A DNA stretch of 42,979 nucleotides from Oceanibaculum indicum P24 (GTDB taxonomy: Bacteria; Pseudomonadota; Alphaproteobacteria; Oceanibaculales; Oceanibaculaceae). Under the pieces are notes generated by a model that did not search any database, had not been told where the DNA came from, and worked only from the letters and a program-made list of their open reading frames with translations. The translations under genes and the position numbers were made by a program. Shown in pieces: positions 22,404 to 32,798 of this stretch. Within the stretch, counting starts at the first letter, position 1. Each line of letters opens with the position of its first letter. The stretch spans positions 1 through 42,979 of the forward strand of contig NZ_AMRL01000029.1 in NCBI RefSeq assembly GCF_000299935.1. The letters run 5' to 3'.

Positions 22404-23084
22404 CTAGAAATCCAGATCGGCGTAGTGCTTGGGCGGTGACACGCCGGGGATACGGTCGGCCAGCAGCGGACGGAAGGCCGGACGGGACTTCACCCGGGCA
22501 TACCATTCCTTCGCCTCGGCATGCTCCTCCCACGGGACATTGCCGAGATAATCGACGCAGGAGAGATGCGCCGCGGCGGCAAGATCGGCCAGGCTCAGAT
22601 GATCGCCGGCCAGCCAGGTCCGCCGCTCGCACAGATAGCCGATATAGTCCAGATGGTAGTGGATGTTGGTCAGGCCGGCGCGGATCGCCTCGCTCGACGG
22701 CTCGCCCAGCCCCAGAAAGCGCTTCAGGATCTTCTCGCCGACCAGATTGCGCGTCACTTCCTCATAGAACTTGCAATCGAACCAGGCGACCAGCCGGCGC
22801 ACCTCGGCACGGTCGGTGGGAATACCGGGGATCAGCCCGCGCTTGGGATAGGCTTCTTCCAGATACTCGCAGATCGCCCCGGAATCGCACAGCGTGACCG
22901 GCCCGTCCGGCCCTTCATCGTCGATCAGCACCGGCACCTGGCCGGCCGGATTCAGCGCCAGGAAATCCGGGCGTCTTTCCCAGATTTTCTCGACACTCAT
23001 CTCGAAGGCGAGGTCCTTTTCGGCCAGGACCAGGCGAACCTTGCGGCTGAAGGGGGATAACCAGAGGTGATAGAGGGTACGCAT
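22404..23084 (-). CDS. Glutathione S-transferase family protein
   Basis: A 226-residue GST-fold protein. The thioredoxin-like N-terminal domain includes LYHLWLSPFSRKVRLVLAEKDLAFE, the cis-proline glutathione site NPAGQVPVLID and the DSGAICEYLEE motif. The all-helical C-terminal domain includes TWLAGDHLSLADLAAAAHL, the N-capping box region. Serine in SPFSRKVR is the likely glutathione-activating residue. The substrate is unknown. It lies 87 bp downstream of the class I aminotransferase gene on the same strand and is the last gene of that minus-strand run before the convergent TPR gene. Confidence 0.9.
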   Translation of the reverse strand: MRTLYHLWLSPFSRKVRLVLAEKDLAFEMSVEKIWERRPDFLALNPAGQVPVLIDDEGPDGPVTLCDSGAICEYLEEAYPKRGLIPGIPTDRAEVRRLVAWFDCKFYEEVTRNLVGEKILKRFLGLGEPSSEAIRAGLTNIHYHLDYIGYLCERRTWLAGDHLSLADLAAAAHLSCVDYLGNVPWEEHAEAKEWYARVKSRPAFRPLLADRIPGVSPPKHYADLDF

Positions 23085-23171: not shown

Positions 23172-24347
23172 CTAGCCCAGCATCGTCTCGATGCGGTCGA
23201 GGCAGTGATTCAGGATCTCCGGGCTGTTGGCGAAGCAGAGCCGCAGATGCCCTTCGCCACCCGGCCCGAAGGCGCTGCCCGGCGCGAGTCCGACGCGATG
23301 TTCCGCCACCAGCCGCTTGGCGAAATCTAGGCTGTCCGTCATGCCGTCCACCGCGAAGAAATGGTAGAAGGCGCCCTTCGGCTGCACGATGCGCACGCGC
23401 GGATGCTGCGACAGCCGGTCATAGACGAGATCACGGCCCTGCTTATAGCGCGCGACCGAGCGGGCGATGAACGGCTCTCCCTGCTTCACCGCCACCACAC
23501 CGGCATGCTGCGCGAAGGTGGAGGCCGAGGCGGTGTTGAACTCATTCATCTTCAGCAGCGTCGGGATCATGCCCAGCGGGGCGGTGATCCAGCCCATGCG
23601 CCAGCCGGTCATGCTCCAGGATTTGGAGAAGCTGTTCAGCGCCAGCACCGGATCGTCCTCTGACGCGATGTCGAGGAAGGAGGGTGCCCGCTTGCCCTCG
23701 AAAACCATGCGGTCATAGACCTCGTCGGCGATGATCCAGATGCCCTTCTCGCGCGCGAAATCGAGCAGCGCCTGCTGCTGGTCGCGCGGCATCACCCAGC
23801 CGGTCGGGTTGTTCGGCGAGTTGATGAACAGCGCGCGGGTATTCCCGTTGCAGGCATCCATCAGCCGCTCGATATCGAGTTGCCAGCCATCATTGCCCAT
23901 GGAGAGCAGTACCGGGCGCACCTCCCCGCCCATGATGCGCACCGTCTCGCTGCAATTCGGCCAGAGCGGGCTGGTGGTAACGACATTGGTGCCGGCATCG
24001 ACCAGCGACTGCATGACGATCTGGATCGCATTCATGCCCGAGGCGGTGATGACGATGCGCTCGGGCGAAATGGTGCGGCCGCACAGCGGCGTCAGATACT
24101 CGGCCAGTGCGGCGCGCAGTTCCGGCACGCCGGCGCTTTCCGTGTAGAAGGTGTGGCCCTGGCGCAGCGCCTCGGCTGCCGCCTCGCAGATAAAGGCGGG
24201 CGTCGGCTCGTCCGGCTCGCCGAACCATAGCGGCACCACGCCGCCCAGCTTCATGCCGTAATGCGCGACCTCACGGATGCGCGAATCGTCCAGCCGCAGG
24301 ATACCGGGACGGATGTCGGCGGGCGGAATCTGTGTCGTGAGGTCCAT
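23172..24347 (-). CDS. Class I/II PLP-dependent aminotransferase
   Basis: A 391-residue fold-type I aminotransferase (AspC/AraT/alanine aminotransferase-like). Family marks are LWFGEPDEPTPAFICEAAAEAL, TFYTESAGVPELRAALAEYL, ITASGMNAIQIVMQSLVDAG, FINSPNNPTGWVMP, the IIADEVYDRMVF aspartate segment, the PLP lysine in NSFSKSWSMTGWRMGW and the substrate arginine in HLRLCFANS. Specificity is unclear; given paaG next door and the indolepyruvate oxidoreductase 2 kb further on, an aromatic amino acid is a reasonable guess. The start at 24347 is chosen as the natural protein start; the open frame to 24782 runs antiparallel-like within paaG and is not coding. It lies 77 bp after paaG. Confidence 0.88.
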   Translation of the reverse strand: MDLTTQIPPADIRPGILRLDDSRIREVAHYGMKLGGVVPLWFGEPDEPTPAFICEAAAEALRQGHTFYTESAGVPELRAALAEYLTPLCGRTISPERIVITASGMNAIQIVMQSLVDAGTNVVTTSPLWPNCSETVRIMGGEVRPVLLSMGNDGWQLDIERLMDACNGNTRALFINSPNNPTGWVMPRDQQQALLDFAREKGIWIIADEVYDRMVFEGKRAPSFLDIASEDDPVLALNSFSKSWSMTGWRMGWITAPLGMIPTLLKMNEFNTASASTFAQHAGVVAVKQGEPFIARSVARYKQGRDLVYDRLSQHPRVRIVQPKGAFYHFFAVDGMTDSLDFAKRLVAEHRVGLAPGSAFGPGGEGHLRLCFANSPEILNHCLDRIETMLG

Positions 24348-24424
24348 GGAGCAAACTCGTCGATTACGGGTATGGCCCTTATGCGGCGGCAAACGCGCCG
24401 GGGCAACCCCTACTTCCCCTGCCC

Positions 24425-25213
24425 CTACTTCCCCTGAAAGGCCGGCGGGCGCTTGGCGAGGAAGGCGGCAACCCCCTCGCGGTAGTCGGCAGTGCGGCCG
24501 GCTTCGCGCTGCAGATCGCGTTCCATGTCGAGCTGGCCGTCCAGCGAATGACCCGTCGAGGCCTGGATCGCCTGCTTGATGAGGCCCAGCGCCCGGGTCG
24601 GCTGGGTGGCCAGATGCCGGGCGAGCTTCACTGCTTCCGGCATCAGCTCGGCATCGGGCAGCACCTTCCAGATCAGCCCCCATTCGGCGGCGCGCGCTGC
24701 CTCCAGCTTCTCCGCCGTCAGCGCCAGCGCCATGGCGCGGGCATGGCCGACGAGACGCGGCAGCAGCCAGGTACCACCGCAATCCGGCACCAGCCCGATG
24801 CGCGCAAAGGCCTGGATGAAACTGGCGGATTCAGCAGCAAGCACGATGTCGCAGCACAGTGCGAAATTGGCCCCGGCCCCGGCGGCAACGCCATTCACCG
24901 CGCAGACAACCGGCTTCGGCAGGGCGCGCAGTCGCTTCACCAGCGGGTTGTAGCGCTCCTCCAGCGAGGCGCCGAGATCGATATCGTCGGAGATCACCTT
25001 GCGGTCGCCCAGATCCTGCCCGGCGCAGAAGCCGCGCCCCGACCCGGTGATCAGGATCGCGCGCACCGCCTCCTCCTTCTCCGCCGCATCCAGCGCCACC
25101 GTCATCTCCGCCAGCATGACGGTAGTGAAGGCGTTCAGCTTGTCCGGCCGGTTCAGCGTGATCGTCATCACCCCGTCCGCGACATCGACCAGCAGGGTCT
25201 CGTAAGCAGCCAT
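24425..25213 (-). CDS. paaG: 2-(1,2-epoxy-1,2-dihydrophenyl)acetyl-CoA isomerase (PaaG-like enoyl-CoA hydratase)
   Basis: A 262-residue crotonase-fold enzyme. It closely resembles E. coli PaaG as I remember that sequence: GRGFCAGQDLGDRKV, RYNPLVKRLRALPKPVVCAVNGVAAGAGANFAL, IGLVPDCGGTWLLPRLVGHARAM, AAEWGLIWKV, LARHLATQPTRALGLIKQAI and the C-terminal ADYREGVAAFLAKRPPAF. PaaG converts the ring epoxide of phenylacetyl-CoA to the oxepin form and also acts as a delta3-delta2 enoyl-CoA isomerase. The catalytic aspartate is expected in LVPDCGGTW. The other paa genes (paaABCDE, paaZ, paaK) are not in this window, so here it may serve general enoyl-CoA isomerisation. GGGAGA precedes the ATG; creatininase gene is 17 bp upstream. 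Confidence 0.88.
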   Translation of the reverse strand: MAAYETLLVDVADGVMTITLNRPDKLNAFTTVMLAEMTVALDAAEKEEAVRAILITGSGRGFCAGQDLGDRKVISDDIDLGASLEERYNPLVKRLRALPKPVVCAVNGVAAGAGANFALCCDIVLAAESASFIQAFARIGLVPDCGGTWLLPRLVGHARAMALALTAEKLEAARAAEWGLIWKVLPDAELMPEAVKLARHLATQPTRALGLIKQAIQASTGHSLDGQLDMERDLQREAGRTADYREGVAAFLAKRPPAFQGK

Positions 25214-25230: not shown

Positions 25231-26013
25231 TTATTCTTTCAACAGATCAGCGGGCAGCGTGTTGATCTCCGCCAGCAGCGCAGCAAGGCGCTCCGCCGCA
25301 AGCTCGACGATGAGCCTCCCCTTCTCCGCATCGGCCAGCGCGGCATTGCCAATGGCACCGCTGGCGTTCAGATCCTGCGTCATCCAGGCAAAGCCGGCCT
25401 TTTCAACCAGCGGATGGGAGACAGCCAGATCGCGGTAGCGCGAGGGGAAATCGGCCAGAAGCTCGCGGCGCACCTTATTGGGGTGCAGATGCAGCATCAT
25501 CGAGGTCTCGACCGCCCCGCCATGAATGCCATAGGCCAGCTCATCCTCCGGAAACAGCCCATCGGGCAGACCCAGATCGAACCAGCTGCGCCCGACCGTC
25601 AGCATCGACAACCGCACGCGCAGATCGACCGCGACGATATCCACGATCTGCGGCTGACCGCCATGCGAATTGAAGATCACCAGCTTGCGGATGCCGGCCC
25701 GACGCACCGATTCCGCGATTTCCGTCCAGCTGCGGATCAGCCCTTCGGCGGAGTGGGTCAACGTACCGGGAAAGGCCTGATGCTCGTTGCTCTTGCCGAT
25801 TTCCTGCATCGGCAGGGCCAGCACTGGCAGATCGTCCGGCACAAGCGCCAGTGCCCGCGCCAGGATGCCGGCATTCAGATCGGCATCGACCGACAGCGGC
25901 AAATGCGGGCCATGCTGCTCGATGGCCGCCACCGGCAGCACGGCAATGGCCCGCGCTGTATCGAGTGCGGCGATATCAGCGGTAGAGAGATCGCGCCAGT
26001 AACGGCCAGCCAT
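25231..26013 (-). CDS. Creatininase family amidohydrolase
   Basis: A 260-residue metal-dependent amidohydrolase of the creatininase family (creatininase, mycofactocin MftE, FAPy deformylase relatives). Metal and catalytic motifs are VAAIEQHGPHLPLSVDAD at the N-terminus, IGKSNEHQAFPGTL, VIFNSHGGQPQIVDIVAVDLR and AYGIHGGAVETSMMLHLHP. The substrate is probably a cyclic or linear amide but cannot be named. Its ATG overlaps the stop of the SbtB-like gene (TGATG at 26011-26015), which suggests translational coupling. It follows the permease and PII genes and precedes paaG in one minus-strand run. Confidence 0.92.
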   Translation of the reverse strand: MAGRYWRDLSTADIAALDTARAIAVLPVAAIEQHGPHLPLSVDADLNAGILARALALVPDDLPVLALPMQEIGKSNEHQAFPGTLTHSAEGLIRSWTEIAESVRRAGIRKLVIFNSHGGQPQIVDIVAVDLRVRLSMLTVGRSWFDLGLPDGLFPEDELAYGIHGGAVETSMMLHLHPNKVRRELLADFPSRYRDLAVSHPLVEKAGFAWMTQDLNASGAIGNAALADAEKGRLIVELAAERLAALLAEINTLPADLLKE

Positions 26014-26333
26014 CAGAAATGCTCGTCCCGGACGACCTCGACATCCGACATATAGACGATGCCGACATAATCCTTCAGCAGCCCCTGAGACTGGGCGAGG
26101 ATGGCGCGGGCGATCTCCTCCGTCGTCACCACCACGATCATCACATTGTCGAACACCTGCACCACATCGGCACCGCCGCGCATCCCACGCCGTCCCTTGC
26201 CGCCAAGATTGGGCACCACCGTATAGCCGGTCGCCCCCTGCTCCGTGATCATGCGCAGGATGCGGGGCGCGCGCGCCACCTCGACCACGATCTCCACCTT
26301 CTTTTTCTTATGGGTCTGCAGCTCGTCGGTCAT
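26013..26333 (-). CDS. PII-like signalling protein, SbtB type (DUF3240/P-II family)
   Basis: A 106-residue protein with the PII ferredoxin-like fold: KKVEIVVEVARAPRILRMITEQGATGYTVVPNLGGKGRRG, then MRGGADVVQVFDNVMIVVVTTEEIARAILAQSQGLLKDYVGIVYMSDVEVV. This pattern resembles SbtB, the adenylate-sensing partner that binds and inhibits the bicarbonate permease SbtA. The T-loop-like GGKGRRG region is present. The C-terminal redox loop with cysteines found in cyanobacterial SbtB is absent here, so control by adenine nucleotides alone is likely. It lies 13 bp after the SbtA-type gene and overlaps the creatininase gene. The start at 26333 is the ATG at the family N-terminus. Confidence 0.87.
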   Translation of the reverse strand: MTDELQTHKKKKVEIVVEVARAPRILRMITEQGATGYTVVPNLGGKGRRGMRGGADVVQVFDNVMIVVVTTEEIARAILAQSQGLLKDYVGIVYMSDVEVVRDEHF

Positions 26334-26346
26334 GGCGGCCTTCGCG

Positions 26347-27348
26347 TCAGAGGATCGCGCGGGCGAGCGCCGCATAGAGCGGCAGGCCGGCGATCAGGTT
26401 GAAGGGGAACGTCACCCCCAGTGACAGGGTAACATAGAGCGCCGGGTCGGCCTGCGGCAGGGCAAGGCGCATCGCCGCCGGCACTGCGATGTAGGAAGCG
26501 CTGGCCGCCAGCGTAGCCAGCAAGGTGCCGCCGCCGACCGACAGGCCGAGCGCCCAGGCGACGGCAAGGCCGAGGCTGGCGCCGATCAGCGGCATATAGA
26601 GGCCGAAGGCGATGAGGCGTGGCCGCAGCATCTGGAAGCCGGACACCCGGCGCGAGACCAGCAGCCCCATCTCCAGCAGGAACAGGCAGAGCACGCCCTT
26701 GAACGGCGTCTCGAAGAAGGGCTGCACGGCGGCATAGCCCTCGCTGCCGCTCACCCAGCCGATGACGAACCCGCCGACCAGCAGCATGACCGAGCCGTTC
26801 GCCAGTACCTCGCGCAGCAGCTCGCGGCGGTCGCCGCCATCCGCCGCCATCGCACCGCCTTCCAGCGCCAAGGCGCGGCCGGCCAGCAGCAGCCCGGCGA
26901 TGATCGCCGGCGTCTCCATGACCGCCAGCATGGCGACCAGATAGCCCTCATAGCCGGTACCGTCGCGCGCCAGCATCTGCGTCGCCGCGACGAAGGTGAC
27001 GACACTGACCGAGCCATAATGCGCCGCCACGGCGGCCGCATTCACCCGATCCGCCCCGGCGAGGCGGCGCAGCAGCGGATAGGCGATGTAGGGCATGCCG
27101 AAACTGAGGGCGAGCGCCGCCAGCAGTGCCGGCAGGATGGCAAGACCAAGGCCGGCATGGCCCATCTCCACCCCGCCCTTCAGCCCGATCGCGAACATCA
27201 GGTAGATGGCAATGGCCTTGCCCACGACCTCCGGCATATCGAGGTCGGATTTCACGAGGCCGGCCACCAGCCCGAGCACGAAGCTCAGCACCAGCGGCGA
27301 GAGAAGATTGCCGAGAGCGGCATCGATCAGCGAGTCCATGACCGCCAT
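26347..27348 (-). CDS. SbtA-type sodium-dependent bicarbonate permease family protein
   Basis: About 333 residues with some ten membrane helices, matching the DUF897/SbtA family. SbtA takes up bicarbonate with sodium. Visible family segments are LLSPLVLSFVLGLVAGLVKSDL at the start, KAIAIYLMFAIGLKGGVEM, AHYGSVSVVTFVAATQML, MLAVMETPAIIAGLLL, PFFETPFKGVLCLFLLEMGL, and the closing AASASYIAVPAAMRLALPQADPALYVTLSLGVTFPFNL. The start is not fixed: ATG at 27348 or at 27339; a TTG at 27360 is less likely. No carboxysome, RuBisCO or carbonic anhydrase gene is nearby, so in this probable heterotroph it may feed carboxylases or carry another small anion. Confidence 0.9.
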   Translation of the reverse strand: MAVMDSLIDAALGNLLSPLVLSFVLGLVAGLVKSDLDMPEVVGKAIAIYLMFAIGLKGGVEMGHAGLGLAILPALLAALALSFGMPYIAYPLLRRLAGADRVNAAAVAAHYGSVSVVTFVAATQMLARDGTGYEGYLVAMLAVMETPAIIAGLLLAGRALALEGGAMAADGGDRRELLREVLANGSVMLLVGGFVIGWVSGSEGYAAVQPFFETPFKGVLCLFLLEMGLLVSRRVSGFQMLRPRLIAFGLYMPLIGASLGLAVAWALGLSVGGGTLLATLAASASYIAVPAAMRLALPQADPALYVTLSLGVTFPFNLIAGLPLYAALARAIL

Positions 27349-27396
27349 AGCTGCCGTCAAGCCGCCGCCGAATCAAGCCGTTTCAATATGAAGCGC

Positions 27397-27705
27397 TCAG
27401 GCAGCGGGACGACCGAGGACGCGCCCTGGCTGCCAGCCCTCCGCCGCCTGATCGGCATCATAGGCATCCACTGCCGTTTGCAGGTTCAGCCAGAAGCGTG
27501 TCGTCGTCCCCAGCGACTTGGCAAGCCGCGCCGCCATTTCGGGCGTCACTCGCACATGCCCGTTCACCAACAGACTTATCTGCTTGCGGCTGGCACCCAG
27601 CGTTTCGGCCAGGTCCGTCACGGAAACACCGCGCGGCACCAGATAATGCTCCCGCAGTATCTCACCCGGCGCGGTCGGACGGCGATGGCGTTGCAAACCG
27701 GTCAT
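27397..27705 (-). CDS. higA: HigA family antitoxin, addiction module
   Basis: A 102-residue helix-turn-helix antitoxin of the HigA/VapI group. The start RPTAPGEILREHYLVPRGVS is followed by LAETLGASRKQISLLVNGHVRVTPEMAARLAKSLGTTTRFWLNLQTAVD, which is the typical HTH plus C-terminal helix. It should neutralise HigB and repress the operon. Its ATG overlaps the higB stop (TGATG at 27703-27707). The next gene downstream on the same strand is the SbtA-type permease, 48 bp away. Confidence 0.93.
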   Translation of the reverse strand: MTGLQRHRRPTAPGEILREHYLVPRGVSVTDLAETLGASRKQISLLVNGHVRVTPEMAARLAKSLGTTTRFWLNLQTAVDAYDADQAAEGWQPGRVLGRPAA

Positions 27706-27989
27706 CAATGGTAATCCTCCAGATCGATCACCTCGACATCCTTGCCGTCGAAAGTGAAGGTGATGCACCAGTTGCCGGAAACATGCATCGAATACTGCCC
27801 CCGGCGGCTGCCTTGCAAGGGGTGGAAATCTTTCACGCCCTCGCAGTCGGCAAGGTCAGCTACCGCATCAAGATGGTCGAGTATGAGCAGCGCATTGCGC
27901 TGGAGATCGCGACCGACACGCGCACTCCGTCCGGTCTCGAAAAGCTCACGCAGCCCCTTGTGGCGGATGCGGGAAATTGCCAAGCGCAC
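27705..27989 (-). CDS. higB: HigB/RelE-ParE superfamily toxin
   Basis: A 94-residue toxin of the RelE/HigB fold, which as a family cleaves mRNA on the ribosome. Recognisable parts are GLRELFETGRSARV near the start, the ILDHLDAVADLADCEG segment, the FHPLQGSRRGQYSMHVSGNWCITFTFDG strand-turn-strand block and the C-terminal VIDLEDYH. The start is a GTG at 27989; an in-frame TAA lies just upstream, and no ATG is available. The order toxin then antitoxin is the usual one for HigBA. The operator candidate at 27998-28014 sits directly upstream. Confidence 0.92.
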   Translation of the reverse strand: MRLAISRIRHKGLRELFETGRSARVGRDLQRNALLILDHLDAVADLADCEGVKDFHPLQGSRRGQYSMHVSGNWCITFTFDGKDVEVIDLEDYH

Positions 27990-28041: not shown

Positions 28042-29037
28042 TCACTCCGCCGGGGCGGGCTTTGCCGGCCGGCTCGCCTCGCCGCGTTTCTCCAGCCGTT
28101 CCAGCAGCGCGCCCAGGATGCCCTTCGGCATGAAGATGATGAACAGCACCAGCAGCAGACCGTAGATCGTACCGTCCAGCCCGTGCACATCATGGCCGAC
28201 CAGGATGCGCAGCGATTCCGCCAGCAGCAGTGTGAAGACCGCCCCCACCGTAGGGCCAAGCTGCACATACATGCCGCCGGCGATGACCGCGAACACGATC
28301 TGCAGGCTGATGGCGATGCCCGACATGGTCTCCGGGTTGATATAGAGCTGGTACTGCGCGTAGAGCACACCGCCCAGCGCGGTCAGCATGGCGCTCAGCA
28401 CCGTGATGGTCAGCTTGGTGCGGGTCACATTCATGCCGAGCGAGGCCGACGCATCCTCCTCCTCGGAGATCGCTTCCAGCGCATAGCGCGCCATCGACCG
28501 GTCCACCAGCTTCCACACCCACAGGCCGAACAGCCAGACCGCCAGCGCGATGTAGAAGAAGGTTTCCTTGTCGGAGAATTGCAGCGCCATCAGTGAATTG
28601 GGCGTGTCTGCCGAGCGCGGTGTGATGCCCAGCGAGCCGCCCGTGGTGTCGCGCAGCGCCACGATGGTCAGGCGTACCACCTCACTCAAGGCCAGCGTCA
28701 CCAGCGCGAAATAATGGCCGACGATGCGGAAGCGGAAGCAGGGATAACCGATCAGCACCGCCACGATGCCGGCGAACACCATGGCGATGGGAATGCCGAT
28801 CCAGGGCGACAGGCCGGCATCGTTCCACAGCAGCGTCACCGTATAGGCACCGATGCCCAGGAAAGCACCATGGCCCAGTGACACCAGCCCGAACCGGCCC
28901 ATCAGCGACCAGCTGGTATAGATGAAGCCCCAGATCAGGATGGTGATCAGCAGATGCAGATAGTAATTGCCGAGCCCGAGGAACGGGATGACGGCAAGCA
29001 CCGCGACGGCGATCAGCCAAGGCAACATACGCGGCAT
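28042..29037 (-). CDS. livM: Branched-chain amino-acid-type ABC transporter permease, LivM
   Basis: A 331-residue inner-membrane permease of the LivM family, with about nine to ten helices. Typical sequences are YYLHLLITILIWGFIYTSWSLMGRFGLVSLGHGAFLGIGAY, GLSPWIGIPIAMVFAGIVAVLIGYPCFRFRIVGHYFALVTLA, the coupling EAA-like loop around YALEAISEEEDASASLGMNVTRTKLTITVLSA, and GTVGAVFTLLLAESLRIL-like end segments. A charged C-terminal tail follows. It is the last gene of the importer operon, starting 1 bp after the LivH stop. The transported substrate is not certain; family members carry branched-chain amino acids, urea, amides or aromatic acids. Confidence 0.92.
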   Translation of the reverse strand: MPRMLPWLIAVAVLAVIPFLGLGNYYLHLLITILIWGFIYTSWSLMGRFGLVSLGHGAFLGIGAYTVTLLWNDAGLSPWIGIPIAMVFAGIVAVLIGYPCFRFRIVGHYFALVTLALSEVVRLTIVALRDTTGGSLGITPRSADTPNSLMALQFSDKETFFYIALAVWLFGLWVWKLVDRSMARYALEAISEEEDASASLGMNVTRTKLTITVLSAMLTALGGVLYAQYQLYINPETMSGIAISLQIVFAVIAGGMYVQLGPTVGAVFTLLLAESLRILVGHDVHGLDGTIYGLLLVLFIIFMPKGILGALLERLEKRGEASRPAKPAPAE

Positions 29038-29038
29038 C

Positions 29039-29908
29039 TCAGCGCCTCCTCGACAGGATGCCTTGCGGCTTCAGGAACATCATCAGGATGAAGAAGGCGA
29101 AGGCGATCACATAGCCCCACTCGATGGCGAAGAAGAAACCGCCGATGGAGATGAACTGGCTGAAGATGAAGGCCGCAACGAAGCCGCCGATCATGTTACC
29201 GAGCCCGCCCATGACACAGATCATGAAGGTGATCGGCCCGAAGCTGAGGCCGATGGCCGGATGCACGTCATATTGCAGCACCAGCAGGCAGGCCGACAGG
29301 CCGGCAAGCCCGCCGCCGATGGCCGAGGTCATCAGATAGACGCGCTGAGGGTTCACCCCCATCAGCGGCATGATCTCGCGGTCCTGGCTGATGGCGCGGA
29401 TCGCCGTGCCGATATAGGTGCGCGTCAGGAACAAATAGAGCGCCACCATCCCGGCCAGCGCGGTGACGAAGGCCAGCACGCGGGCAAAGCTGAAATACAT
29501 GTCGGCGAATTCCAGCACCGGCAGGCGCAGCCCGATATTGCGGAACTCCACGCCGAACACCAGCGTCGCCAGCGCCTGCAGGAAGAACAGCACGCCACCG
29601 GTCACCAACAGCTGGTTGATCGGCGCCGCCCCCAGGATCGGCCTTATGACAAGGTAATGCAGCAGGGCGCCGGCGGCGGCCACAATGACGATGCCCGCCA
29701 GGAAGGCCGGCACGATCGGCACGCCGTAAAAGGCGAACAGCCAGTAGACCGTGTACATGCCGATCATCACCAGCTCGGCATAGCAGATCCAGACCACGTC
29801 GATGACACCGAAGACGAGGTTCAGGCCCAGCGCCAGCAGCGCCAGCACCCCGCCCAGCAGAATGCCGTTCAGGATCGCTTCCAGAAGGAAGATATCGAAG
29901 ATTTCCAT
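29039..29908 (-). CDS. livH: Branched-chain amino-acid-type ABC transporter permease, LivH
   Basis: A 289-residue inner-membrane permease of the LivH family. Family marks are LLEAILNGILLGGVLALLALGLNLVFGVIDVVW at the start, FAFYGVPIVPAFLAGI, the coupling loop TRTYIGTAIRAISQDREIMPLMGVNPQRVY, and GLSFGPITFMICVMGGLGNMIGGFVAAFI near the end. It forms the membrane channel together with LivM, powered by LivG and LivF. It lies 15 bp after the LivF gene and overlaps the minus-strand reading of LivM by almost nothing (1-bp gap). Confidence 0.93.
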   Translation of the reverse strand: MEIFDIFLLEAILNGILLGGVLALLALGLNLVFGVIDVVWICYAELVMIGMYTVYWLFAFYGVPIVPAFLAGIVIVAAAGALLHYLVIRPILGAAPINQLLVTGGVLFFLQALATLVFGVEFRNIGLRLPVLEFADMYFSFARVLAFVTALAGMVALYLFLTRTYIGTAIRAISQDREIMPLMGVNPQRVYLMTSAIGGGLAGLSACLLVLQYDVHPAIGLSFGPITFMICVMGGLGNMIGGFVAAFIFSQFISIGGFFFAIEWGYVIAFAFFILMMFLKPQGILSRRR

Positions 29909-29923
29909 GTCCCCTGCTTCCCC

Positions 29924-30620
<697 letters not shown>

Positions 30621-30628
<8 letters not shown>

Positions 30629-31376
30629 GGGCCTCTCCCGTCTCCGCGATCTCGACCCGCTCGGAGCCGAGATAGACCTCCACCACCCTTGGGTCGCTGG
30701 CGACCTCGCGCGGCAGGCCCTCCGATATCTTCTCGCCGTGGTCGAGCACCATCACCCGGTCCACGACGCGCATCAGCACGCCCATGATGTGTTCCACCCA
30801 GATAATGGTGATGTTCTTCTCGCGCCGGATCATGCTCAGCATGTCGGCAGCCTGGTCCATCTCCTGCTCATCGAGGCCGCCCAGGCTCTCGTCGGCCAGC
30901 AGCAACTTCGGCTGGGTGGCCAGCGCGCGGGCCAGCTCCAGCTTCTTCAAGCCGGCCGCCCCCAGCCCGTCAACCGAGGCCTTCGCATCGGTCGGCAGGT
31001 TCACCAGGCCCAGCGCTTCCTCTGCCTGGGCCCAGGCCTGCTGCCGCGAGACCCGGCCGTTCTGGCCGTAATAGGCGGCGACAGCCACATTCTCCAGGAT
31101 CGACAGCCGCTTGAAGGGCCGCGGTATCTGGAAGGTGCGGCCGATACCCAGATGGCAGACATCCATCGGCCGCTGGCCGCCAATCTCCTGCCCCAGGAAG
31201 CTGATGCTGCCTTCCGTCGGGGCCAGCGTGCCGGCGATCAGGTTGAAGGTCGTGCTCTTGCCGGAGCCATTGGGGCCGATCAGCCCCAATATCTCGCCCT
31301 GCTCCAGACTGAAGGACACATGGTCAACGGCGGTGAAACCACCGAACCGCTTGGTCAGGTTAGATACGGTCAGCAT
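30621..31376 (-). CDS. livG: ABC transporter ATP-binding protein, LivG
   Basis: A 251-residue ATPase of the LivG family. Walker A is IGPNGSGKSTTFNLIAG, with the Q-loop around LGIGRTFQIPRPFKRLSILENVAVAAYYG, signature around GLGAAGLKKLELARALATQPKLLLADESLGGLDEQE (non-canonical signature, typical of some LivG) and IIWVEHIMGVLMRVVDRVMVLDHGEKI as the H-loop region. It follows the binding-protein gene by 61 bp and overlaps livF. Confidence 0.94.
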
Positions 31377-31437
31377 GAATCATCCGCCGTTGCCACGGAA
31401 ATCCGAACTCTGGTGAAGGGCAGGGCCGTCCGCACCC

Positions 31438-32736
31438 TCAGCGGGCGTAGACGTGGCCCTTCGGCAACGGCAGCACCGGATCGACCGTCTTGATAGCCGC
31501 CGGCCAGACCACCTTGGTGTCGCCATCGATGTACTGCATGACGACCGGGCTGGACCGCTCGTTCTGACCCGCCATCTCGGTGCCCGGACCATAGAACTTC
31601 ACGCCATAGCCCTGGATCGTGCCACCGACCGGGATGTCGGTGTCGAGCGCGGCCTTGCGCAGCGCCTCCGGATCGAAGCCGCCATACTTCTTGATCGCGC
31701 GCGGCAGCACGTCGGTCAGGAAGATCCAGGTCTGGTTGAAGCCCATGGAGGTGTGCGGCGGCACCTGGTCGGCCTTGGTCTCTGCCTTGTAGCGCTTCAC
31801 CATCTCGGCGGTCACGTCGCCCAGGCCCGGCGCCAGCGTCTTCGGGTCAAGCAGCTGGGCCGCCACCGGATCGACATTGTAGATGTAGTTGGCATCGGCG
31901 CCGAAGGTCTCGCGCAGCTTGTCGATCTGGCCGTAGCCGGCACCATGACCGATCAGCGCGCCCCACTTCAGGCCGAGCTCGCGCGCCTGACGCAGGAAAA
32001 GGGTGATGTCGGGATTGTAACCGGTGTGCAGGATGACGTCCGGGCGCTCGCGGCGCAGCTTGGTGACCAGGCTGGAGAGGTCGGGTGCGGTCGCGGCATA
32101 GCCTTCCTTCAGCACGATGTTCATGCCGAGTTCCTTGCACTTCGCCTCATTGCCCGAGGCGACGCCGGCACCGTAGGGACCATCCTCATAGATGATGGCG
32201 ACGCGCACATCCTTCGGATCCTTGCCCAGCTTCGCCTTCGCATTCTCATGGGTGAAGGTGCAGGAGGCCGCGCCGAACTGGTCGGAATGGACCTGAGCGC
32301 GGAAGGCATATTGCAGGTTCTTGCCCTTGAACACGGAAGAGGCGACGCAGACATTCGCCCACATGAACTTCTTCAGCTGATCGACGCGCTGGGCCATCGG
32401 CACGCAGTGCGCGCTGGAGAACACGCCCATGATGACATCGACCTTTTCCTGCTCCAGCAGGCGGGTCATCTCGTTGATCGCCACCTCGGCCTTGGACTGC
32501 GCATCGGCGTAGGTCGCCACGATCTTGTGGCCCTCGACACCGCCGCGCTCATTGATGATGTCGATGGCCGACTTGGTGCCGATCGCGGCGGCCTGCGACC
32601 CGCCGGCCGCGAACGGGCCAGTATAGTCGAAGATCACGCCGATCTTGATGTCGGCCTGGGCCGGTGCGGCGACGAACAGCGCGGCTGCCGCTGCGGCACC
32701 CGCGCAATATGCCTTTATCCCTTTGAGCTGGGTCAT
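31438..32736 (-). CDS. Periplasmic substrate-binding protein of the Liv-type ABC importer
   Basis: A 432-residue type I (Peripla_BP_6) binding protein with a 28-residue signal peptide ending APAQA before DIKIGVIFDYTGPFAAGG. Other family segments are IDIINERGGVEGHKI, the VDVIMGVFSSAHCVPMA binding segment, VAIIYEDGPYGAGVASGNE and DVILHTGYNPDITLFLRQARELGL. It captures the ligand for the LivHMGF transporter encoded downstream; the ligand is not evident from the sequence, and amides, aliphatic or aromatic acids are all possible. The start at 32736 follows GGAGG eight bases upstream; an earlier ATG at 32763 would bypass that site. First gene of the operon. Confidence 0.93.
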   Translation of the reverse strand: MTQLKGIKAYCAGAAAAAALFVAAPAQADIKIGVIFDYTGPFAAGGSQAAAIGTKSAIDIINERGGVEGHKIVATYADAQSKAEVAINEMTRLLEQEKVDVIMGVFSSAHCVPMAQRVDQLKKFMWANVCVASSVFKGKNLQYAFRAQVHSDQFGAASCTFTHENAKAKLGKDPKDVRVAIIYEDGPYGAGVASGNEAKCKELGMNIVLKEGYAATAPDLSSLVTKLRRERPDVILHTGYNPDITLFLRQARELGLKWGALIGHGAGYGQIDKLRETFGADANYIYNVDPVAAQLLDPKTLAPGLGDVTAEMVKRYKAETKADQVPPHTSMGFNQTWIFLTDVLPRAIKKYGGFDPEALRKAALDTDIPVGGTIQGYGVKFYGPGTEMAGQNERSSPVVMQYIDGDTKVVWPAAIKTVDPVLPLPKGHVYAR

Positions 32737-32748
32737 TGTGAGTCCTCC

Positions 32749-32798
32749 CATGTTGCGACCCATTTTCGGGTTCGCTTATTTAGTTTATGCGCAACATG
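32749..32798. promoter_or_regulatory. 9-bp inverted repeat upstream of the liv-type operon
   Basis: CATGTTGCG (32749-32757) and CGCAACATG (32790-32798) are perfect inverted copies separated by 32 bp. One arm lies directly 5' of the ribosome site of the binding-protein gene (minus strand). It could be a paired operator for a dimeric regulator acting at two sites or a hairpin in the mRNA leader near the start codon. No regulator gene is adjacent. Confidence 0.45.

Follow-up and report, generated by a model that had tools for sequence, protein, structure and literature searches.

The window analyzed here, a stretch of 42,979 nucleotides from Oceanibaculum indicum P24, carries a gene for an SbtA-type permease directly followed by a gene for a PII-like SbtB relative. 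The analysis established the identity of both genes, their predicted folds, their conserved pairing and the conservation of their motifs. In the favored interpretation, the permease takes up bicarbonate in a Na+-coupled manner, is gated by an SbtB that senses energy charge, and feeds biotin-dependent carboxylases; we consider this mechanism, taken as a whole, reasonably probable, and bicarbonate quite likely to be the substrate. More tentatively, and with somewhat less than even confidence, we propose a broader scheme for heterotrophic Alphaproteobacteria: (i) a widespread bicarbonate-supply module would be built on a distinct SbtA class, (ii) control of this module would fall to a PII-like valve or else to a divergent LysR regulator, (iii) the PII-like T-loop would have changed once from Arg to Trp, implying a change of signal, (iv) the Trp branch would have repeatedly taken in carbonic anhydrase, and (v) the window would represent the older Arg-type valve.

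The sbtAB pair and its neighbors

The genes considered are all encoded on the minus strand, as follows.

26347..27348, minus strand: sbtA, Sbt_1-family Na+-dependent bicarbonate-type permease of the ASASYIAVP class (PF05982, AlphaFold2 model)
26013..26333, minus strand: sbtB-like gene for a PII-like protein without the C-terminal Cys loop, T-loop RGMR (PF00543, PDB sequence and fold matches, alignment)
25231..26013, minus strand: creatininase-family hydrolase, one-base TGATG overlap with sbtB (PF02633, 221.5 bits)
24425..25213, minus strand: paaG-like enoyl-CoA hydratase/isomerase of a liv-linked block (passes the PaaG equivalog TIGR02280, 407.7 bits against a cut-off of 345.15)
23172..24365, minus strand: class I/II PLP aminotransferase of the liv-linked block (PF00155; NF004770 over its cut-off)
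27397..27989, minus strand: higBA toxin-antitoxin pair between livM and sbtA (TIGR02607, PF05015)
28042..32763, minus strand: five-gene branched-chain-type ABC transporter upstream of sbtA, with two permeases, two ATPases and a binding protein (PF13458)

The original prediction placed an SbtA-type permease and its PII-like partner at positions 26013-27348. Both assignments proved correct, and the coordinates hold to within the choice of start codon (in the list of open reading frames, SbtA has a TTG start at 27360, four codons further upstream than 27348). SbtA has 333 amino acids, scores 372.5 bits (E 2.2e-111) against PF05982 with its curated cut-off of 27, and is the sole match of this family in the genome. 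Its AlphaFold2 model (pLDDT 90) has the SbtA fold of 10 transmembrane helices in a 5+5 arrangement; the top five PDB matches of the model, 7egl, 7cyf, 8zor, 7egk and 7cye, are all SbtA (TM 0.78-0.86), and bile-acid transporter and antiporter folds rank below the SbtA entries.

The PII-like protein, encoded 13 bp from sbtA, has 106 amino acids and matches PF00543 (63.4 bits, E 2.6e-17) and DUF190 (E 2.2e-5). Its sequence matches in the PDB are CPII and SbtB, and the top fold matches of its AlphaFold2 model (pLDDT 88) are Thiomonas CPII and SbtB entries; it thus combines a PII ferredoxin-like fold with a location adjoining sbtA. The protein ends in VVRDEHF and contains no cysteine, so that the CGPxGC R-loop is absent, as had been noted from the sequence. 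This loop is described as present only in some SbtB proteins, Cyanobium SbtB being one that lacks it (PMC10991534), and its absence is no bar to SbtB-like status because it does not define all SbtB. Na+-dependent bicarbonate transport is predicted for SbtA, and adenyl-nucleotide binding and complex formation with SbtA are predicted for its partner.

The creatininase, paaG and aminotransferase genes share the strand of sbtAB, and the TGATG overlap of sbtB with the creatininase-family frame is visible in the sequence, both as originally described. The creatininase-family protein scores below the equivalogs TIGR04448 (creatininase; 89 bits, cut-off 235) and TIGR03964 (MftE; 97 bits, cut-off 172) and can be assigned, by profile matches, at the Pfam family level only. 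Directly upstream of sbtA and on the same strand lie higBA and the ABC transporter genes, four of which, other than the binding protein gene, bear names that we presume from their translations. A promoter and terminator scan of the window gave a result at chance level, and no match indicating a phage link was found. Downstream of the aminotransferase gene, positions 22404-23084 encode an FzlA-like protein (NF050814, 306 bits, cut-off 300); this gene follows the aminotransferase gene in the window and in G001 and lies on another contig in G002 and G003.

Sequence class of SbtA and the predicted substrate site

We compared 52 sequences of the ASASYIAVP class with two cyano-type alphaproteobacterial ones, using Synechocystis numbering from the alignment. 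Residue roles were taken from PMC8352866, and those of V113, S114, S324 and I326 were deduced from the residue list given for SO_3758 in PMC12093963. The Na+-site and central substrate residues G111, S114, S322, S324 and I326 are invariant in all 52 sequences. The D325 position is Tyr throughout the class (52/52), the Y140 position is never Tyr, and the S327 position is Ala in 48 sequences and Val in 4. Judged by this motif, these proteins form a sequence class distinct from cyanobacterial SbtA.

The docked bicarbonate site consists of S114, Y140, S324 and S327 (PMC8352866). The window SbtA retains S114 and S324 and carries Leu in place of Y140 and Ala in place of S327; because these two of the four residues are altered, we file it, on its sequence, as a member of the Sbt_1 family and not as a cyanobacterial-type SbtA. 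In the cyanobacterial protein, replacing either Y140 or S327 by alanine left 10-40% of transport (PMC8352866), and the change of these two positions across the class counts against the importer reading.

The creatininase-family gene is rarely near sbtAB in relatives

A motif scan with one genome per species yielded at least 583 relatives, of which we retained the best 80, each with flanks of up to 8 kb; fractions of named loci refer to these nearest 80, and neighbor counts are based on all open reading frames of each locus. No creatininase gene was found within 6 kb of sbtA in any of the 80 named loci (best 80 of at least 583), and among the loci of 18 class relatives only that of the sister species G001 has one. 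We also inspected the creatininase homologs of 7 class relatives, taken from 14 genomes outside the genus with a creatininase match, and found no SbtA or SbtB homologs around them.

The family and order of the window consist of one genus with four genomes in the collection (G000-G003), two of which, G000 and G001, have sbtA. G001 shows the same gene order as the window, with a HicB antitoxin gene (L024:9370-9753) in place of higBA before sbtA. In G002, sbtAB is missing from the interval between the end of livM (L058:10597) and the start of the creatininase frame (10708), after which come paaG and the aminotransferase gene; in G003, where sbtAB is likewise lacking, creatininase-paaG and the aminotransferase gene are located close to contig ends. 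Thus, the liv-linked block of creatininase, paaG and aminotransferase genes occurs in genomes that lack sbtAB as well. The livM-sbtA junction is a site of changing toxin-antitoxin genes (higBA in the window, HicB in G001, nothing in G002).

The original prediction had joined sbtAB and the creatininase gene into a nucleotide-regulated uptake and amide-hydrolysis unit. That these genes, with paaG and the aminotransferase gene, form one such system is very improbable, although some observations would suit it: the TGATG overlap recurs, by coordinates, in the sister genome, one unrelated genome (G094) has a paaG-like gene after sbtAB, and the creatininase-family protein is only 67-69% identical between the sisters with sbt and those without (L058, L059), whereas the figure is 81-91% for the neighboring liv, paaG and aminotransferase proteins. 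The absence of creatininase from the 80 loci, the block without sbtAB in G002 and the creatininase homologs of 7 class relatives lacking SbtA and SbtB nearby led us to discard the partnership. Judged by the refuting condition set with the original prediction, the catabolic neighborhood does not travel with sbtAB in relatives; we judge the creatininase-family gene to be a neighbor of the pair and not its partner, and the adjoining breakdown-enzyme genes look like local bystanders.

Carbon metabolism of the host genus

No carbon-fixation genes had been seen, and for RuBisCO this holds genome-wide: PF00016 has no match in the four genomes of the genus, so that the RuBisCO component of a CO2-concentrating mechanism is missing and we rejected a role in CO2 fixation. 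PEP carboxylase (PF00311) and PYC_OADA (PF02436) likewise have no match in these four genomes, and we rejected anaplerosis via PEP carboxylase or pyruvate carboxylase in the genus; this leaves biotin carboxylases as the proposed bicarbonate sink. All four genomes have beta-carbonic anhydrase (PF00484) and carboxyltransferase (PF01039), and the window genome has two carbonic anhydrase genes on another contig than sbtAB. A strong PF01039 match (>688 bits) is present in the two sbt-less genomes (G002:C1:218335-219780 and G003:C174:361-1806) and missing from the two genomes with sbt, a contrast that involves just two genomes on each side.

Among 96 relatives, RuBisCO over the cut-off was observed in 3 of 18 genomes with SbtA and 10 of 78 without, which shows no association (Fisher p 0.71); one of the three genomes with both, G031, has a cyano-type SbtA. 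Both SbtA classes (L027 and L035), each with its own PII-like gene, occur in G094, where the first pair precedes the paaG-like gene and no RuBisCO match was found.

The PII-like partner and its T-loop

A PII-like gene directly follows sbtA in 71 of the 80 named loci (best 80 of at least 583), 78 of which have at least 350 bp downstream. In the window protein, R49-G-M-R52 matches the R43xxR46 motif of the T-loop, which is reported to coordinate ATP phosphates in SbtB (PMC10117731). Of 82 PII-like relatives, 71 carry Trp at the R46 position and 11 carry Arg; the pattern used allowed only Arg or Trp and matched all 82, and a 36-row alignment likewise shows only these two residues. The RxxR motif is kept in 6 of the 11 Arg-type relatives. 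On the SbtA tree the Arg/Trp label requires a single change. Arg is likely the ancestral state, retained in the window, because the cyano-type loci are of the Arg type. The Arg-to-Trp switch provides natural variants in which to probe T-loop sensing.

Carbonic anhydrase genes adjoin sbtAB in relatives

Beta-carbonic anhydrase genes, with identity Pfam-confirmed on three examples, were observed within 1 kb of the sbtA locus in 29 of the 80 named loci (28 on the same strand) and farther than 1 kb in one (best 80 of at least 583). In the same set, the near flanks (156,406 bp in total) and far flanks (929,832 bp in total) differ 172-fold in carbonic anhydrase density; p values for this adjacency are inflated by the relatedness of the loci. 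The carbonic anhydrase label requires 11 changes, on several branches, on the finished SbtA tree, from which the fragmentary L038 and L039 were left out and in which L037, L034 and L030 sit on long branches with unsure placement; on an earlier, preliminary tree, 7 changes were forced by supported branches. In six loci, by coordinates, the first base of the carbonic anhydrase gene coincides with the final base of sbtB, in the slot held by creatininase in the window.

This adjacency points to bicarbonate as the substrate and, because of it, bicarbonate is a better reading than another anion. It is unlikely that the SbtA class carries another small anion, such as formate or another short carboxylate, gated by the PII-like protein. 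The class-wide changes at Y140, D325 and S327 would be in line with such a substrate, but the core site residues are invariant and carbonic anhydrase adjacency recurs, together with one RuBisCO neighborhood. Expression of Shewanella SO_3758, a relative that shares Y271-I272-A273, increases tolerance to formate, in Zymomonas as well (PMC12093963); the Shewanella work, as far as described there, concerns tolerance and docking rather than transport. Of the two options raised originally, heterotrophic bicarbonate supply or another anion, the first gains from the lack of RuBisCO, the conserved pair with its PII-like partner and the recurrence of carbonic anhydrase, and the second is less favored. 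The window is of the Arg type, and none of the 11 loci of that type has carbonic anhydrase nearby; thus, the window is tied to this association by kinship only, and the substrate inference for the window itself is weakened.

SbtB or LysR

Six of the eight named loci without SbtB (L091, L099, L104, L121, L127 and L136) are accompanied by a LysR-like gene no more than 110 bp away and on the opposite strand, versus three of the 72 named loci with SbtB that have one within 200 bp (best 80 of at least 583; Fisher p 7e-6; leaving out L127, whose contig stops just past sbtA, gives 5e-5). Among 16 plasmid records matched, six homologs of the same motif class (L161-L166) were examined in PLSDB gene tables, which are incomplete: none has an annotated PII-like gene adjoining, and all six have a LysR-type gene adjacent or one gene away. 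In three of the six, that gene is labelled 'hydrogen peroxide-inducible genes activator', which we take to be LysR-type. On plasmid p1 of Cereibacter azotoformans (L166), LysR genes flank the same-motif SbtA gene, and form I RuBisCO genes (cbbLS) are found two genes from it.

Proposed mechanism

From homology and the kept motif we infer the substrate, direction of transport, ligand, gating and physiological use of sbtAB as follows. SbtA would be an elevator-type (5+5 helix) importer that couples bicarbonate uptake to Na+, and its PII-like partner an adenylate sensor. At low energy, with AMP or ADP bound, the T-loop of the partner would enter the cytoplasmic cleft of SbtA and thereby close the transporter, whereas with ATP or cAMP bound the partner would release SbtA. 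Lacking the redox R-loop, the PII-like protein would read energy charge only. Imported bicarbonate would then serve biotin-dependent carboxylases (acetyl-CoA and acyl-CoA carboxylase) and not CO2 fixation. For the known proteins, Na+-driven elevator import by SbtA, insertion of the SbtB-AMP T-loop into SbtA, prevention of the complex by cAMP and a response mainly to energy state in SbtB without the R-loop are described in PMC8352866, PMC10117731 and PMC10991534.

Several further observations bear on the importer reading. The lack of nearby carbonic anhydrase in Arg-type loci and the existence of two of the four genus genomes without sbtA count against the importer reading; the same-motif SbtA near form I RuBisCO in Cereibacter counts for it, as does the presence of NhaA Na+/H+ antiporter genes in the vicinity of sbtA (5 of 98 loci). 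Since heterotrophs produce CO2 themselves, a need for bicarbonate import is not obvious. This consideration, like the NhaA neighbors, could suit a permease that exports bicarbonate or serves pH or Na+ homeostasis rather than supplying carboxylases, and the Shewanella authors favor efflux for SO_3758 (PMC12093963). We regard such a role as rather improbable: cyanobacterial relatives of the same fold import (PMC8352866), and a PII-like valve closing at low energy would suit an energy-costing importer.

Similarity to known systems

SbtA-SbtB is mainly treated as a part of the cyanobacterial CO2-concentrating mechanism. The window pair shares with Synechocystis slr1512-slr1513 (7cyf, 7egk, 7egl) both folds, the order sbtA-sbtB, the Na+-site with S114, S324 and I326, and the T-loop RxxR; it differs in the low identity of SbtA (~24%), the D325Y, S327A, Y140L and S323A replacements, the lack of the CGPxGC R-loop, and a host without RuBisCO. 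By both sequence and fold, the PII-like protein is matched best by CPII of Thiomonas intermedia K12 (PDB 5d4n-5d4p, 5ds7), which is ~30% identical; ADP, AMP and bicarbonate are listed as ligands in the titles of these entries. CPII is described as lying near the carboxysome genes of an autotroph.

Among heterotrophs, Shewanella oneidensis SO_3758 is a Sbt-like permease with Ala at the S323 position and the residues S-A-S-Y-I-A, a likeness drawn from the residue list of the paper; it was studied for formate tolerance, and the parts of that paper considered describe no PII-like partner (PMC12093963). 'Ca. Phycosocius' and SAR11 IIIa/LD12 are, like the window host, Alphaproteobacteria not known to fix CO2 that have an Sbt permease, and anaplerotic use of inorganic carbon is discussed for them (PMC10008586, PMC10030771); in the sections considered, these papers describe no PII-like partner, carbonic anhydrase operon or motif class. 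A heterotrophic SbtA with an anaplerotic role was proposed for 'Ca. Phycosocius' (PMC10008586), an Sbt permease was noted in SAR11 IIIa (PMC10030771), and PMC10880623, where SbtA is treated in autotrophs, mentions that the toolkit genes are widespread in heterotrophs too. The idea of a heterotrophic SbtA for anaplerotic bicarbonate is therefore already in print. For the carbonic anhydrase operon, the Arg-to-Trp switch and the SbtB/LysR alternation we found no description in the openly licensed literature, which is weak evidence of absence.

If heterotrophs supply carboxylases through the same PII-like valve, the basic job of the pair would be bicarbonate homeostasis under energy control, and the disputed gating of SbtA by SbtB could be tested in genetically easy, non-photosynthetic hosts. 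The plasmid records already annotate these homologs as 'sodium-dependent bicarbonate transport family permease'.
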